Source: a virus. From it: a stretch of DNA of 63,882 bases. The position numbers were made by a program, and so were the translations under genes. Below, piece by piece: positions 7,718-15,114 of this stretch; the stretch's first letter is position 1, and the number at the start of each line of letters is the position of its first letter. The stretch is taken from positions 1 through 63,882 of IMG/VR virus record IMGVR_UViG_3300017917_002193. One strand, written 5' to 3'. The notes below the pieces were generated by a model, which was not told the DNA's origin, made no database searches, and saw nothing but the letters and a program-made list of their open reading frames with translations.

Positions 7718-10168
7718 ATGAACATCCATGAGCTGTCAACCTATAATCTTGCTGATGCGGTAAAATTCCATGACCGCTTGAATCCGCGCCTATTTGGGCG
7801 CGATGAAAAACTTCTACCCGTAGTTAGACAAAAGCTCTTGGAGATCGCCGCAGATTTCCAAGAGTTTCTTGGTGTTGAGGATTTGCAAATCCAAGACATC
7901 ACAATATCAGGCTCCAACGCAGCCTACAGCTACACTCTACACTCAGACATAGACTTACACCTTGTGGTAGATCGTCCCAACGACGAAGTTTACCGCGAAT
8001 TGTTTGATGCTAAAAAATATCAATACAACGACGAGCACAACATCACCATTGGTGGTTATGATGTAGAGCTGTATGTACAAGACGCTGACCAAACACATGT
8101 AAGTCAGGGCATTTATTCAGTGCTGAATGATGACTGGATTTCAGTGCCCAAGCGACGTCGTGCTGATATTGATGACATGAGTGTGCGTCACAAGTACGAA
8201 GACATTGGTCACCGTGTAGAACAAGCCATTGAAAGCAATGACTTAGAGCGTGTAACAGCTACAATAGAGAAAGTTAAGCAGATTCGCAAAGCTGGTTTAG
8301 AAGCCAATGGCGAGTTTGGTCCTGAAAATCTTGCCTACAAAATGTTGCGCAAACAAGGCTACATTCAGCGACTGTTTGATCGTCGCAATGAATTGCGTGA
8401 CGCAGAACTCAGTTTGAACGAGCGCAAGAAAAAGAAAAAGCCACGTCAGAAGTATGGTGTGTTTGGCGGATACTGGTTCCCTGGTTTTGCTTACGCTGGT
8501 CAAGATCATGCCGCTGGCACCGAAGGTGGTGGGGATGGTGGCGGGGAAAGCATACGTGAAGCCAGCACGCCTGATGGGGTCAGCGCCACCACTTGCATGT
8601 TCTTGAACGAAGAACCCGAAACTCGTGCATTGCTGGAAAAGTTTATTCAGTATGTTGCTGGTCGTCTGGAAATCAAAGACATGCCACACATTGAGTTGCA
8701 TGACGATTCCAACTGGAGCGAAGGCAACACCAGCTTTGGTAGATTTGATCCTGACACTCATACATTACATGTAAGCTTGCCCAATCGTCACATTCTAGAT
8801 ATCATGCGCACCACAGCACATGAACTAGCACATTGCCGTCAACACGAAATTGAACCCTTGCCCGACAATGCTGGAGAAACTGGCAGTGGCTGGGAAAACG
8901 AAGCGCATGCTGTGGCCGGTATTATCATGCGTGATTTTACTGATCAGCATCCTGAATATTTCAATAGCGACAATGTTGAAGCCAACGAAGTCGACGAAGG
9001 CATAAAATCAAAACTGGCTGCGGGTGCATTGGGCGCCGCTTTGGCATTGGGTGCTGGTGGTGCCAAAGCACAAACAGTTGGGCATGCATTGGGAGCCGCA
9101 GTAGACACAGCTCGAGTAGTACAGTCGCTTAAAAACATGGGCTGGAGTGGTGCTAGAGAAGACTTATCACAAGAAATTAAAAACTACAGCCGTGCGCTGG
9201 GTGGTGACGCCAATGCGCAAAATCAAAGCTGGCTGTATCGTCAACAACAACGTCAAGGCACATTGCCACAGCAAGCACAACCAAGTGATCAGCAAGCTCA
9301 AGACGATTTTGAAGCATACAAAAAAGATTATTATCGTAAAAAAGCTGAGTTTGACAAGCGTTTTCAACAAAACGAATCAGCGTCAGGGTACATTCCTACA
9401 AAGCGTCAAGCAAAAGATCCACGTTACAGCACGGCGCTGACAGTGGATATCAAGCCTGGTGAAGTAGGTAGACAAGCCAACAAAATGGCGTTGAAAACTG
9501 ACAGTCAAGGCAAACCTGCGCTGTTGATGAAAACTGCAAACTTACGAGAAGGTCTGAGTTTGCAAGAAAGACTAGAACAAGAATTGTCTAGATTAAACAA
9601 AGACAATCCTTACGAATTTATTGACCCACGCAACAAGCCTGCACCGGCCAACAAATATGGTATGAACGGACATGTTGATGAAGATTACAGTGCTGACAAT
9701 CCTCCAGGACCAGAAAGCAAACCCACCATGCCCAAGGGCACTTTGCGTGTAGATGTGTCTGACATGTATGACTGGTATAAACTAGGAACGCACATTAGCA
9801 ATATGAAAGGGCTTGGCCAGCATGACTTTGGCTCAGGACCTCCCAGTACTATTGTTAGCTTCGGGGACGAAGATACTGAACACGAATTCATTGGGGACTT
9901 AGAAGCCACAGGGCTAGATGTCACAGACATTGATCCCAAGGATCCAAAAAAGCGTCCGGGCAAAACAATCAAAACTGATCCCACATACAATGTAGATGAA
10001 AACTTTGCCGATGGCAAAAACCCAGGTCGCAAGGGCCTGGCCAAGCGAGTGGGCGTGGACTGCAAACAGCCTGTGAGTAAGCTTCGTAGCATTGCCAAGA
10101 ATAGTTCAGGCGAAAAGCAAAGAATGGCACATTGGTGTGCCAACATGAAATCAGGTAAGAAAAAATGA
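7718..10168 (+). CDS. Nucleotidyltransferase / zinc metallopeptidase fusion, probable virion protein
   Basis: 816 aa. Residues about 55-170 carry a nucleotidyltransferase motif (ISGSNAAYSYTLHSDIDLHL, with Asp77 and Asp79). A Lys-rich linker and Gly-rich segment follow. Residues about 290-410 hold a zinc peptidase site, HELAH (368-372), with a downstream Glu-rich helix that could give the third ligand. About 430-450 is an Ala/Gly-rich hydrophobic stretch; the middle is Gln-rich. The tail (about 765-816) is a basic, two-cysteine module. The mosaic of enzyme and packaging-like modules suggests a protein delivered with the DNA, but that is inference. It overlaps the next gene by 4 bases. Confidence 0.78.
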   Translation: MNIHELSTYNLADAVKFHDRLNPRLFGRDEKLLPVVRQKLLEIAADFQEFLGVEDLQIQDITISGSNAAYSYTLHSDIDLHLVVDRPNDEVYRELFDAKKYQYNDEHNITIGGYDVELYVQDADQTHVSQGIYSVLNDDWISVPKRRRADIDDMSVRHKYEDIGHRVEQAIESNDLERVTATIEKVKQIRKAGLEANGEFGPENLAYKMLRKQGYIQRLFDRRNELRDAELSLNERKKKKKPRQKYGVFGGYWFPGFAYAGQDHAAGTEGGGDGGGESIREASTPDGVSATTCMFLNEEPETRALLEKFIQYVAGRLEIKDMPHIELHDDSNWSEGNTSFGRFDPDTHTLHVSLPNRHILDIMRTTAHELAHCRQHEIEPLPDNAGETGSGWENEAHAVAGIIMRDFTDQHPEYFNSDNVEANEVDEGIKSKLAAGALGAALALGAGGAKAQTVGHALGAAVDTARVVQSLKNMGWSGAREDLSQEIKNYSRALGGDANAQNQSWLYRQQQRQGTLPQQAQPSDQQAQDDFEAYKKDYYRKKAEFDKRFQQNESASGYIPTKRQAKDPRYSTALTVDIKPGEVGRQANKMALKTDSQGKPALLMKTANLREGLSLQERLEQELSRLNKDNPYEFIDPRNKPAPANKYGMNGHVDEDYSADNPPGPESKPTMPKGTLRVDVSDMYDWYKLGTHISNMKGLGQHDFGSGPPSTIVSFGDEDTEHEFIGDLEATGLDVTDIDPKDPKKRPGKTIKTDPTYNVDENFADGKNPGRKGLAKRVGVDCKQPVSKLRSIAKNSSGEKQRMAHWCANMKSGKKK

Positions 10169-10647
10169 GAGCCCGTGAATTCCTTGACGAATTAAAAATA
10201 GACAATCGCGGTGGCCTGGGTGCAGTGCCCAACAACCAAGACATTGATTACTTTGGCTTGCGTGTAGCCATGAAGCCCAGCATGTTTTTAAAGTTATCAC
10301 TGCCACTGGACGCCAACCAACCCGACGAAGCAGAAACCATACAGTATATTGCCAAGAATCTTGACACACAGGGCATTGGTGCACCATTCTTGGAAGTGGC
10401 ATTTCCCGCTGAGTGGGATGAAGGTGTATTCAAGAATCCAGCACAAGTCAAAGGTCACGACGGTCGTCACAGAATGTATGCTATTATGCAACAGCAAGGT
10501 GATGATCCTGTAGAGGTACATATATTTCCACGAGGTGGTATGCGTCGCAGAGACATTACACCTGAAATGATTGATGCACTGCGCCAAGGCATAGTTGGCC
10601 AGCGCGGTAGTTATGTATCGGGACCAATATTTGGAGAAGCAGAATGA
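10165..10647 (+). CDS. ParB-like fold protein with prohead-targeting-like N-terminus
   Basis: 160 aa. The first residues, MRAREFLDEL, resemble a T4 capsid targeting sequence. The core has KGHDGRHRMYAI (about 98-109), reminiscent of the GxxRxxA motif of ParB/Srx-type CTP- or ATP-binding domains, then an Arg-rich strand. The ATGA overlap on one side and a 4-base overlap on the other tie it to the metallopeptidase and gp88-like genes. Enzymatic activity is unproven. Confidence 0.7.
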   Translation: MRAREFLDELKIDNRGGLGAVPNNQDIDYFGLRVAMKPSMFLKLSLPLDANQPDEAETIQYIAKNLDTQGIGAPFLEVAFPAEWDEGVFKNPAQVKGHDGRHRMYAIMQQQGDDPVEVHIFPRGGMRRRDITPEMIDALRQGIVGQRGSYVSGPIFGEAE

Positions 10648-11801
10648 AAATTAGAACCATTGTAGAAGCCGCAGAAGGCATTCGTAGACTGGGCGGTTTC
10701 CCGGTCAAAGTAATAAACGTAGAACAAAGCGGCGAACAGATTGACGAGCTCAAACTAGACGCACCCAGTCGTCGTATTTCACGTGATGAACTGCAAGGCT
10801 ATGCTGACCGTATCAAAACTGGCACCAAGACCAAGCGTGACAAATTTGCCCCCATTATTCACGGTTCAAACATCAAAGCCATTACAAAAGATGATGGCGG
10901 CACTGAGTGGGACTTGGATGACTTGGCCACTCAAATCACCACACGTCCACGAGCTATTCTAGGCACCAATGCCAAGATGGAAAAGTCAGCCACAGAAGGC
11001 GAAATAATTTATGACTTAACACTGCCTGCGCTGAGTGGCATTGTGGTAGACGAAGAAACAGGGGATTTTGTAGAGATCACAACGTGTCCCGGTGCTGGGC
11101 AATGTCAACTATTCTGCTATGCTAGAAAAGGTGGCTATGTTATGTTCCCCGCTAGCTCAATGAGTGCGGCACAAGCACTGAACTTCCTGGTCAATGACCC
11201 CGATGGTTACATGGCCAAAGTAAATCAAGAAATTGCCACAATCAAACGAAAGACTGACAAAGTAGGAATTCAACTTGTTGTGCGCTGGCACGATGCTGGC
11301 GACTTCTTTAGCAAAGACTATCTCAATCTAGCATTTAAAATTGCAGAGCAAAACCCCGAAGTCAAGTTCTATGCATACACCAAGATTGCTGATGTTGCCA
11401 CTGGTGCCAAGCCTGACAACTTTATCATCAACTTCTCAAGCGGTAGCAAGCGTGGCGAAGAAAAGAAGATTGAATTCCACAAATCACAGGGCAATGTTGT
11501 CAAGCAAGGCGTAACAGTGCCCAAGGACATGTTCTTTGACTTGATTGCACGACAGGGTAACAAGCTGATCAAAGACGCTAAAGGTCGTACACAATTCCGT
11601 GATGACGCTGCCTTGGAAGAATTCAAACAACGTTTGGCACAAAAATACAATGTGCCCGTGGATTCTATTATCACGTATGACCAAATGCTGTCAACTCCAG
11701 TAGGCGCTGAGCCTCGTTGGAATGTTATTGTACAACCTGGCGCAGGTGACCGTGCAGCCAACCGCAAGGATGTGATAGACAGTTACTTGATGTTCCACTG
11801 A
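10644..11801 (+). CDS. Gp88-like cysteine-motif protein
   Basis: 385 aa. The N-terminus MKIRTIVEAAEG resembles a prohead-core targeting peptide with a cleavage-like site IVE/A. The central part has CPGAGQCQLFCYARKGGYV (Cys148, 154, 158), the hallmark of phage gp88-like proteins, followed by VRWHDAGDFFS and a (beta/alpha)-rich region. The cysteines probably hold a metal or Fe-S cluster; the reaction is unknown. Family naming is from memory of mycobacteriophage gp88 and should be confirmed by profile search. Confidence 0.7.
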   Translation: MKIRTIVEAAEGIRRLGGFPVKVINVEQSGEQIDELKLDAPSRRISRDELQGYADRIKTGTKTKRDKFAPIIHGSNIKAITKDDGGTEWDLDDLATQITTRPRAILGTNAKMEKSATEGEIIYDLTLPALSGIVVDEETGDFVEITTCPGAGQCQLFCYARKGGYVMFPASSMSAAQALNFLVNDPDGYMAKVNQEIATIKRKTDKVGIQLVVRWHDAGDFFSKDYLNLAFKIAEQNPEVKFYAYTKIADVATGAKPDNFIINFSSGSKRGEEKKIEFHKSQGNVVKQGVTVPKDMFFDLIARQGNKLIKDAKGRTQFRDDAALEEFKQRLAQKYNVPVDSIITYDQMLSTPVGAEPRWNVIVQPGAGDRAANRKDVIDSYLMFH

Positions 11802-11802
11802 T

Positions 11803-12447
11803 ATGAGAGCTAGTGAATTATTATCTGAGGGGTTAAATCATCCTGTTATTGTAGTGGACGTACAACCTGCGTATGAACAATACAATCCGCAAGTATGTCA
11901 AAAAATTGTTGATTTTGTGCAAAAGCAAACTGGGCCTGTGCTAATGTTTGTCAATGCAGAACAAGATGGTATGACAGATGATACTATCGAAAGTATTCGT
12001 TACTGGTGGGAAGAAAAAGCAGGTGTTGACTATGACGAGTATGACAACGATCCTGCATACACTGGGCCCATTAATTGGAACAGATTTACTATAGTTGATA
12101 AAGGATATGGCTGGTTTAGACCTTGGATGGACCAGAGAGTGCAACCCAAGTTTATTATTCAATTAATTCGCTATATGTACCAACACAAGTTAAATGACAT
12201 TCGTGATGATATAGATGGGGTGTATCAATACATGACACACAATCCAGTGGGCAACGAGATTGTTGATTGGCAAGATTGGATGGAAGACGAGCCGTTTGTT
12301 ATCAACTGGACCAGTGTTGCACAATTAAAGCGTTTTAACGGTGCTTACTTAGTGGGCGGTGGACGGGAAGAATGCTTGCGAGAAGTTGAATTGTTGATGA
12401 ATGCATTTAACATTCGTTACAAACGAATTGACAGCTTGGTATATTAA
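11803..12447 (+). CDS. Unknown protein with targeting-like N-terminus and isochorismatase-like start
   Basis: 214 aa. MRASELLSEG matches the targeting-peptide pattern (LSE/G). After it, HPVIVVDVQPAYEQYNP resembles the first strand of isochorismatase-like hydrolases (VVDVQ), but no catalytic Cys or Lys motif is clear. The last part, YLVGGGREECLREVELLMNA, looks like the closing strand and helix of a Rossmann-type sheet. It starts one base after the gp88-like stop. Function unknown. Confidence 0.68.
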   Translation: MRASELLSEGLNHPVIVVDVQPAYEQYNPQVCQKIVDFVQKQTGPVLMFVNAEQDGMTDDTIESIRYWWEEKAGVDYDEYDNDPAYTGPINWNRFTIVDKGYGWFRPWMDQRVQPKFIIQLIRYMYQHKLNDIRDDIDGVYQYMTHNPVGNEIVDWQDWMEDEPFVINWTSVAQLKRFNGAYLVGGGREECLREVELLMNAFNIRYKRIDSLVY

Positions 12448-12448
12448 T

Positions 12449-12467
12449 CTGCTACTAAATATAGCAG
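12449..12467 (+). promoter_or_regulatory. Hairpin containing a TAAATA late promoter core
   Basis: CTGCTA (12449-12454) / TAGCAG (12462-12467) flank TAAATA (12456-12461), 19 bases before the polyprotein ATG at 12481. Confidence 0.4.
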
Positions 12468-12480
12468 TGAGAACAACATT

Positions 12481-15114
12481 ATGCTATTAACAAACTTATT
12501 TGAATCTGCTCTACGAGACAAAGAAGACTTGCAAGCCAAGCGCAAAGCCATTCAGGACATTCAAATGGATCCCAATACCCATAAAGATCCTGAGCTTAAA
12601 AAAGAGCTTGCTCGACGCAAAGCTGACTTGGAAAAAGAAGCCAAGAAAAAAGGTCTTGCAGAAAGTGCCGAAAATTTAAACATTGGTGACGATGTTATCA
12701 TCACTGGCAATGTACAGTACAACGGTGCAACCGGTGTTATCAAAGACTTTGGGCGCGACAATCGTTTTGTCATAGTTGATTTGTACAATCATGGCCCACA
12801 CAGTTTTCACAGTTCAGATGTAAGTTATAACGATTACGCAGACAGCGATGAGGAAGAAGCAGATCGGTATGATCGCGACGAAGATTTCCGTGACTATGTG
12901 AGCCGCACTGAAACAGACGAAGCCAGTGACATTTCTGGATTGCTGGCTGCTAATCAGTACAACAAAGTATTCCGTATCACAGCTGAACTAGCCGAAGGCG
13001 GCGTTAAAAAGTTTAAAGTGCGAGCTCAAAGCGAGCGTGTTGCTCGTGAGAAGTTTCTCAAGCATGCCAGCATGGCAAAGATCCTCAAAGTAGAAGATAT
13101 CACAGACATTAGCGAGAGTCTTGCTGATGAGTTCATGAAGATGGCACGTGAAAAAGGTTACAATCCTAGACTACGTGGTACACCTGATGAAGAACGTGCC
13201 CGTACAGATGCAATGTTAAAGCAACGTGCCGCAGATCGTGCAGCCGCACCCAAACCGGCTGGCCCAACACCAGAAGAACGTGCCGAACTAGAAAAGCAGT
13301 TGGCAGCGTTGGAAGCCATGTATGATCCCAATTACGACTACAGCGATGACTACAGCGTTTGGAAGAAGCATCACGAAATTTCCAAGCGCATCTCTGCTAT
13401 TAAAAAGCAACTAGGCGAAGGCTTGCGTGATCCCAAAGACAATCCTTGCTGGAAAGGGTACCACCCTGTGGGTACTAAAAAGAAAGCAGGACGCACTGTT
13501 CCTAACTGTGTGCCTAATGCCAACGAAGGTGTGGCGGAAGACCAGTTAGATGAAATCAGTCAAGATACTGCTAGAAGTTATGCTCAAAAGGCAACCCAAA
13601 GTAAAAAAGACTTAACTAACCAAACATATCGCAAGGGTGCAGACACTGATAAGTTGAACAAGAAAATTCAAAATCGTCAGCAAGGTTTGAATCGTGCCCA
13701 TACTGATAAGCGTTATTACAAAGACGAGTTGGGTGTGGCGGAAGGCTCGGAACAAGTTTATCGAGTATTGGCCGTTGACAAGAGCAACGCACTGTCCAAG
13801 CAAGTGAAGTTGAAAGTAAAAGCCAGTTCATTGGATGAAGTGTTTGAACGATTGGCAATCAATGATTGGTATCCATTGGAAATCAACGGTGTAGAAGTAA
13901 TCAACGGCAAGCGCCTAAAGCAAGGTGTGGCGGAAGGCTCACTAGAGGAAATGAACCGTAGAGGGTTCTTAAAAGGATTGGCTGGTGCTGGAGCAGCCTT
14001 GGCTGCAGGTGGCGCGATAGCAAAAGGTTACAATCCGATCTATGCTGAGAAGAAGAAAAAAGAACGAGAAGAACGAGAAAAGGCTCGGCCCGAACAACCG
14101 GGCAACCATCAACAAATACCAAAACCAAAACCACGTGATAGTTATAACTCTATACCGAAGGAAGGTGTGGCGGAAGGCTTGTTGAACGAAGGCCAATATG
14201 AAATGATGATGAGTAATGGGCAAGTAAAAAAGTTCATTGCCAAAGACGATGCTGATGCCAAACGCATTGCCGCCGGACACGGTGCTAAAAGTGTTATTAA
14301 ACTAAGAGGTGGTGTTCCTGCTGGTAAAGTGGCAGAGCAAGGTGTAGCGGAAGGCAAGGAAGATAAGATTGCCCAACTAAAGAAAGACTATGATACAGCA
14401 GTTCATTGGAGCAAAAATGAAACAAGCCCACAAAAGCGTGAGGCTGCTCGTCAAAAGGCTGAGAAGATCAAACGTCACTTAGATACACAATATAAGCAAG
14501 GTGTAGCGGAAGGCATTTTTGGTTTAACTTCTAAAGAAAAAGCCAAGATACAATACGTCACTGCTAAGATTAGTGATATTCCTGGCAATTGGGATCACAA
14601 GAATCAACAATACACCGAAAGAGGTTTGGCAGATTTAAAGAGTGTAATGAAGAATGAAAAGTATCTAAAGTATGCGTTATCTCTAACCAGCGATGATTTT
14701 GAAGCAGAAGGTGTGGCGGAGGGTGCCAACATTGTTGGCCAAGATAGTGATTTAGATCAACAGGTGTTTACATTGAATGTCGACGGTAAAACAGTTTTGT
14801 TTACCTACTGGGATTATGAAAACAATTTCCAAAGCCCAGACATCAAAGACATCTATCAACAGGCTCGGGAACAGTTGGGCAAAAAACTATCACCAGAACA
14901 GATCAAAGCAGTTGCTCGCAGTGTATTTAAATCGTTCAAGCAAGGTGTGGCGGAAGGCGAAAAGGTTGGCAACATGGATGCTGATAAGTTTGATGCTGCC
15001 ATGGCTCGTCTTAAAAAGTTAGCCGGTGCCGGGCCACTAAAAACAGTGTGGGATCCACAAAAACGTGTGTACAAGAATGTACCAGTAGCACAACAGCCCA
15101 AGGATAAAAAATGA
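12481..15114 (+). CDS. Multidomain virion protein with GVAEG repeats (candidate cleavable polyprotein)
   Basis: 877 aa. The start, MLLTNLFESALRDK, fits a prohead-targeting peptide (LFE/S). Residues about 60-350 contain an SH3-like beta module, a KFKVRAQSERVAREKFLKH-type beta-alpha-beta module, a helical Glu/Arg region, and NPCWKGYHPVGTKKKAGR with a matching Cys. From residue 350 eight GVAE[GD] repeats separate seven unrelated segments of about 53-80 aa. One segment begins with a twin-arginine-like stretch, NRRGFLKGLAGAGAALAAGG. In T4, the gp21 protease cuts after (L/I)xE; VAE/G is close to that. I infer processing during head maturation. No enzyme domain is recognised. Confidence 0.8.
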   Translation: MLLTNLFESALRDKEDLQAKRKAIQDIQMDPNTHKDPELKKELARRKADLEKEAKKKGLAESAENLNIGDDVIITGNVQYNGATGVIKDFGRDNRFVIVDLYNHGPHSFHSSDVSYNDYADSDEEEADRYDRDEDFRDYVSRTETDEASDISGLLAANQYNKVFRITAELAEGGVKKFKVRAQSERVAREKFLKHASMAKILKVEDITDISESLADEFMKMAREKGYNPRLRGTPDEERARTDAMLKQRAADRAAAPKPAGPTPEERAELEKQLAALEAMYDPNYDYSDDYSVWKKHHEISKRISAIKKQLGEGLRDPKDNPCWKGYHPVGTKKKAGRTVPNCVPNANEGVAEDQLDEISQDTARSYAQKATQSKKDLTNQTYRKGADTDKLNKKIQNRQQGLNRAHTDKRYYKDELGVAEGSEQVYRVLAVDKSNALSKQVKLKVKASSLDEVFERLAINDWYPLEINGVEVINGKRLKQGVAEGSLEEMNRRGFLKGLAGAGAALAAGGAIAKGYNPIYAEKKKKEREEREKARPEQPGNHQQIPKPKPRDSYNSIPKEGVAEGLLNEGQYEMMMSNGQVKKFIAKDDADAKRIAAGHGAKSVIKLRGGVPAGKVAEQGVAEGKEDKIAQLKKDYDTAVHWSKNETSPQKREAARQKAEKIKRHLDTQYKQGVAEGIFGLTSKEKAKIQYVTAKISDIPGNWDHKNQQYTERGLADLKSVMKNEKYLKYALSLTSDDFEAEGVAEGANIVGQDSDLDQQVFTLNVDGKTVLFTYWDYENNFQSPDIKDIYQQAREQLGKKLSPEQIKAVARSVFKSFKQGVAEGEKVGNMDADKFDAAMARLKKLAGAGPLKTVWDPQKRVYKNVPVAQQPKDKK
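13528..14958 (+). repeat. Eight interspersed 15-base repeats coding GVAEG
   Basis: Copies start at 13528, 13732, 13924, 14164, 14341, 14500, 14710 and 14944. Four are exactly GGTGTGGCGGAAGGC; two differ only by GTA for GTG; the first ends GAC and the seventh is GCGGAGGGT. Most are preceded by CAA or GAA. Spacing is 159-240 bases, always a multiple of three. The segments between them are unrelated. Codon identity is higher than protein constraint alone requires. Confidence 0.92.

Follow-up and report, generated by a model that had tools for sequence, protein, structure and literature searches.

A candidate phage polyprotein punctuated by a short DNA repeat that may act as both a prohead protease cut site and a seam for module exchange

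What kind of phage protein is built from dissimilar segments that are separated, again and again, by one short peptide encoded in nearly identical DNA? The question is raised by an open reading frame (ORF) at positions 12481 to 15114 of the window (i.e., the whole stretch of viral DNA that was analyzed; 63,882 nucleotides of IMG/VR record IMGVR_UViG_3300017917_002193), which encodes an 877-aa repeat-punctuated candidate polyprotein on the plus strand, as are all of its features given below. The second half of the protein carries eight in-frame GVAE[G/D] sites (DNA, GGTGTRGCGGARG), which a pattern scan placed at 13528 to 13542 (repeat 1; GVAE|D), 13732 to 13746, 13924 to 13938, and 14164 to 14178 (repeats 2 to 4), 14341 to 14355 and 14500 to 14514 (repeats 5 and 6; GGTGTAGCGGAAGGC), 14710 to 14724 (repeat 7; GGTGTGGCGGAGGGT), and 14944 to 14958 (repeat 8). 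Repeats 2, 3, 4, and 8 are identical to each other across the 15 bases GGTGTGGCGGAAGGC. The sites delimit seven segments of 68, 64, 80, 59, 53, 70, and 78 aa, flanked by an N-terminal part of 353 aa and a C-terminal segment of 52 aa (14956 to 15111). Shuffled versions of the protein contained a mean of 0.03 GVAE compared with the eight real ones, and the shuffle expectation for the repeat DNA pattern was 0.29 per whole window with one mismatch allowed; chance is thus ruled out as the origin of the array. At the same tolerance, no further copies were found in the window outside the ORF. The initial annotation had described both the eight-site array, splitting off segments of 53 to 80 aa, and the near-identity of the repeats as DNA, and both are real. 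Shortly upstream of the ORF lies an inverted repeat (CTGCTA-CTAAATA-TAGCAG; 12449 to 12467); CTAAATA is not enriched within the window.

The segments differ in content and company. Segment comparison found a relative of segment 1 (13540 to 13743) in different company in locus L257, relatives of segment 5 (14353 to 14511) in L026 and L270 and of segment 7 (14722 to 14955) in L174, L175, and L037, in both cases with differing neighbors, and a relative of segment 6 (14512 to 14721) in L263. The only Pfam match in the 877-aa ORF was a TAT-signal-like stretch in segment 3 (MNRRGFLKGLAGAGAALAAGGA; PF10518; 13936 to 14175), and no embedded peptidase was detected in that search. NRRGFLKG segments resembling this stretch occur in L057 and L266. 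AlphaFold predicts compact folds for segment 2 (13744 to 13935; a beta-beta-alpha-beta-beta mini-domain; mean pLDDT, 84) and segment 4 (14176 to 14352; beta-beta-alpha-beta; mean pLDDT, 75), with low confidence for the last blocks that contain the GVAE tails (pLDDT, 49 and 41, respectively). Foldseek searches of these two segments against the PDB returned no significant structural match; RNAP epsilon (YkzG) entries came first in the segment 2 search (E = 0.28) and second in the segment 4 search (E = 0.57), both nonsignificant. Sequence identity across contexts is 66 to 97% for these segments. Related mosaic proteins carry other modules as well, among them acetyltransferase-like, NT5C-like, and GP88-like domains, and similar domains exist as separate genes or enzymes too.

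Segments 2 and 4 were searched by their own sequences (i.e., the repeat was not used as bait) and were found in about 14 and 18 distinct neighborhoods, respectively, besides the window, with differing neighbors; their edges elsewhere are nearly always [V/L/M]xE. Neighbors differ on both sides in 11 of the 17 multi-member segment clusters. In the mosaic ORFs of all loci, 485 BLASTN homology ends lie no more than 12 nt from a repeat, compared with 98.8 ± 20 expected for sites placed randomly within the same ORFs.

The repeat is also conserved as DNA. Third-base identity at shared residues is 64% in segment 2 and 90% in its repeat; the contrast is small for segment 4 (70% versus 75%) because the window's own copy of that repeat has GTA, and the nine other copies of it are identical. 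The Ala codon of the repeat is GCG in 106 of 115 copies (92%) from loci fetched independently of the repeat, while GCG accounts for 10.5% of Ala codons in the background of the same kind of ORF; loci fetched with the GCG pattern and loci fetched by segment content together form the basis of this preference. On the basis of the recurrence in other neighborhoods, the position of the homology ends, and the third-base conservation, the exchange of modules at the repeats is well supported by the sequences compared. The earlier idea that the phage swaps segments like cassettes, for which a search of related genomes for the repeat with differing segments between had been suggested, is borne out by segments 2 and 4, by the 11 clusters, and by the concentration of homology ends at the repeats, and a fixed segment order is contradicted in the roughly 14 and 18 neighborhoods.

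Several other arrangements were observed. Segment 2 occurs in tandem (L256:3629-4012), a PKTWHDVDPKLG segment is present twice within one chain of L037, and one segment is common to two adjacent genes in L065. Elsewhere (L291:3979-4204; the same stretch in L292 to L296), an unrelated gene carries segment 4 at its 3' terminus, with FIIE|G at the start of the segment and 25-bp direct repeats (AGGYATGTTAGGATTTAAAGATTTT) on either side; this copy was apparently acquired separately and with a different repeat.

The pattern CARGGTGTRGCGGARGGC matched at least 120 viral contig stretches (contigs up to 374 kb), nearly all within long ORFs carrying one to six GVAE sites. An 18-mer search of 84,980 prokaryote genomes gave 26 matches, one per locus and in GC-rich genomes, which look like chance. 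The ORF had no BLASTN match among isolate phages, and TBLASTN returned short module matches only, in cyanophages and a few others. The isolates nearest to a relative's capsid protein and to the window's DNA polymerase are PA5oct, Phosso, Atu_ph07, CBB, and GAP32, which are large T4-related phages. The source phages can be described as large, environmental, and related to T4. A gp21-type protease (PF03420) was found in 6 of 18 large repeat-bearing records, and the same six carry a gp23-type capsid gene (PF07068); the 12 records with no detectable gp21 may be incomplete. No head protease was detected in the fragment that the window represents. In an alignment by eye, the capsid N termini of relatives have LAE|[NS] where T4 gp23 has LTE|A.

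Does the repeated peptide look like a cut site? T4 gp21 cleaves after Glu in L/I-x-E, and its action on gp22, gp67, and gp68 gives several fragments (PMC9026906). The P1 Glu, free P2, and aliphatic P3 of the seam fit this rule, while its usual P3 residue, Val, departs from it. Counted by position, the nonsynonymous changes in the 317 in-frame near-copies of the repeat number 15 (P4), 12 (P3; to M, I, or L in 11 cases), 16 (P2), 2 (P1), and 57 (P1'). Glu occupies P1 in 114 of the 115 copies in the loci fetched independently of the repeat, and a few variants with Lys at P1 exist. This substitution spectrum (i.e., P1 nearly invariant, P3 aliphatic, P2 free) appears to match that of a T4 gp21-type site. 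Some edges of homologous segments have LKE|G, VME|G, or MVE|G in place of the GVAE peptide. The unrelated KWF module (KWFKEKWV; L301 to L380) is preceded by Glu in all 54 of its contexts and by [LIVM]xE in 52, and it sometimes stands immediately after an N-terminal leader (MRANEIITE|N or MRAEEFISE|D); the Glu before it may belong to the domain itself, not to a cut site. Inside 177 nonredundant segments, [LIVM]xE[AGSND] occurs 20 times versus 44 expected (ratio, 0.45; z = −3.8), compared with 1.24 times expectation in other proteins of the same contigs (0.97 to 1.44 in equal-size samples). Of the controls, the Asp version of the motif came out slightly low (z = −1.3) and the reversed pattern high (z = 3.0), and the depletion could partly be an effect of composition or secondary structure.

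The start of the protein (MLLTNLFESALRD) bears on how it might reach such a protease. Its capsid-targeting-like N terminus (MLLTNLFE|SALR; 12481 to 12516) is compatible with a head-targeting-like peptide ending in LFE|S, which agrees with the head-targeting-like start noted in the initial annotation; at the level of sequence, it resembles the LxE-ending targeting N termini of T4 head-internal proteins. LxE[SAG] leaders are present in 27 of 73 GVAEG ORFs versus 102 of 941 other ORFs (p = 3e-8), so that, with this pattern, a clear leader is seen in only about one-third of the GVAEG ORFs. A motif scan of the N-terminal 353 aa revealed four L/IxE|[S/G] sites, namely, LAE|S at residue 61 (12655 to 12663), LAE|G at residue 172 (12988 to 12996), ISE|S at residue 212 (13108 to 13116), and LGE|G at residue 313 (13411 to 13419), the last one ahead of the CWKGYHPVGTKKKAGRTVPNCVP module. 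The latter two match module starts elsewhere: in L065, L177, and L233, the module after ISE|S stands directly behind an N-terminal leader, and the CWKGYHPVGTKKKAGRTVPNCVP module does so in L022 and L052. LxE motifs, counted over the full length of the protein, do not clearly exceed the number that composition predicts; the signal is carried by the GVAEG array and the module boundaries, not by that count.

The two plus-strand genes upstream begin with MKIRTIVEAAEG and MRASELLSEG (i.e., a start of MKIRTIVE|A in the gene at 10644 to 11801, which has a GP88 domain [PF17338], and a targeting-like start of MRASELLSE|G in the gene at 11803 to 12447). In L119, a GVAEG protein has a domain similar to this GP88 as its C-terminal module. 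An 816-aa neighbor at 7718 to 10168 has a nucleotidyltransferase-like N terminus (a weak match), an HExxH-type motif (AHELAHC) spotted by eye, and a C-terminal NFADGKNPGRKG module that occurs also in L111; it is probably another polyvalent chain.

Cutting gains indirect support from the substitution spectrum, the boundary replacements and KWF contexts, the depletion of internal sites, and the LxE[SAG] leaders, and we also count the gp21 and gp23 genes in the contigs of relatives in its favor. We consider prohead-protease cutting to be the probable best explanation of the constraint at the seam. Shuffling and DNA-level conservation by themselves require no proteolysis, however, and the protein could be an uncut multidomain polyvalent chain, packaged or cytoplasmic, in which GVAEG is a tolerated recombination linker. 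Polyvalent proteins are an established phage theme, the N4 virion RNAP is packaged unprocessed (PMC5512222), and Val at P3 falls outside the described T4 rule. A neutral scar would nevertheless not predict a nearly invariant P1 Glu beside a free P2 and an exclusively aliphatic P3; the LKE, VME, and MVE replacements at boundaries and the avoidance of [LIVM]xE[AGSND] inside segments would likewise be unexpected. We regard an uncut chain as unlikely, if still deserving of some weight.

Cutting might also serve mainly to destroy and expel the chain as a core or scaffold substrate of the prohead protease, with fragments that have no function in the new host. Cleavage of the T4 core proteins yields several fragments, most of which are lost from the head (PMC9026906), but segments 2 and 4 are predicted to be folded and keep their sequences across contexts, cut-like sites inside segments are few, and domains like the GP88, NT5C-like, and acetyltransferase-like modules are present as separate genes or enzymes too; such a role seems decidedly improbable. 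An even smaller likelihood attaches to the idea that the repeat is a mobile element or a recombinase target, able to insert anywhere and with an incidental coding sense. Third-base conservation beyond codon usage and the sharing of copies among many contigs would suit such an element, but near-copies of the repeat number 317 in long open frames and 2 in short ones, and all those in long frames share one reading frame, on which grounds we reject a free-standing mobile repeat. Past about 17 to 18 nt of the repeat, neither a second arm nor a longer conserved flank can be seen, and the chance-like matches in the prokaryote genomes also speak against this explanation.

The reading that we favor, and hold to be probable, is that of a polyprotein that would be targeted to the head of a large T4-related phage and cut by the prohead protease into small internal proteins, with the cut-site DNA doubling as a recombination seam. 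We infer that the capsid-targeting-like N terminus would carry the chain into the prohead core, where the phage's gp21-type protease would cleave on the C-terminal side of the Glu in [V/L/I]xE sites and thereby free a set of mini-proteins of 50 to 80 aa that may stay in the head or be injected. The near-invariant repeat AAGGTGTGGCGGAAGGC that encodes the putative cut site would also be the seam at which recombination joins modules in frame, probably by short-homology or homologous recombination during phage replication, so that related phages would come to carry different combinations from a common pool of modules.

Parts of this design have precedents. The T4 internal proteins (IPI to IPIII and Alt) and gp22, gp67, and gp68, with a short targeting leader, the L/I-x-E rule, and several fragments per chain (PMC9026906), come close to what is proposed here; unlike them, the GVAEG chain consists of many unrelated modules that are singly exchanged between phages, and its site, in which P3 is V, is a repeated, near-identical DNA sequence. 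Polyvalent proteins of phages and conjugative elements, which have been likened to polyproteins by the authors who described them, also place many domains on one chain that is likely delivered into the host (PMC5512222), and the ORF resembles them in its nine GVAE-bounded parts and in segments that recur with different neighbors. An embedded peptidase is common, although not universal, in those proteins, whereas separation of the GVAEG chain would depend on the repeated site and a head protease. The head proteins of SPN3US and phiKZ have multiply cut propeptides with several short-motif cuts after Glu per chain, but these are propeptides of single proteins and not exchangeable modules bounded by repeats (PMC10052503). 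At the DNA level, PeSLs are mobile promoter-terminator cassettes that shuffle T4-type genes (Arbiol 2010 and Comeau 2014, as cited in PMC4503421). They likewise tie short repeated DNA to modular shuffling in T4-like phages but, as described in that source, consist of a promoter and a stem-loop between genes, whereas the GVAEG repeats are coding and lie in frame inside genes. Domain mosaicism of phage proteins also shuffles protein fragments between genomes, and the portion of PMC10684548 consulted mentions no repeated protease-site seam. The initial statement that no described phage polyprotein is built this way must be narrowed, given the multiply cut gp22, gp67, and gp68 (PMC9026906) and the likening of polyvalent proteins to polyproteins (PMC5512222); it stands for the repeat-punctuated, shuffled design, which was not found in the literature searched (a search that covered few subscription papers). 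As far as these sources describe their systems, the proposed GVAEG system combines T4 internal-protein logic, the polyvalent architecture (PMC5512222), and short-repeat shuffling like that of the PeSLs (PMC4503421), the last in a coding, within-gene form.

More broadly, we lean, if only slightly, toward the view that one short DNA repeat serves large T4-like phages both as a head-protease cut site and as a module exchange point, giving them a shared combinatorial pool of packaged mini-proteins. Phages inject proteins along with their DNA, and the choice of these proteins may matter in overcoming host defenses. If the proposed system is real, a new injected module could join the chain in frame and rely on the same single targeting peptide and protease as all the others, and the seam would provide a simple pattern for finding many small uncharacterized phage proteins.
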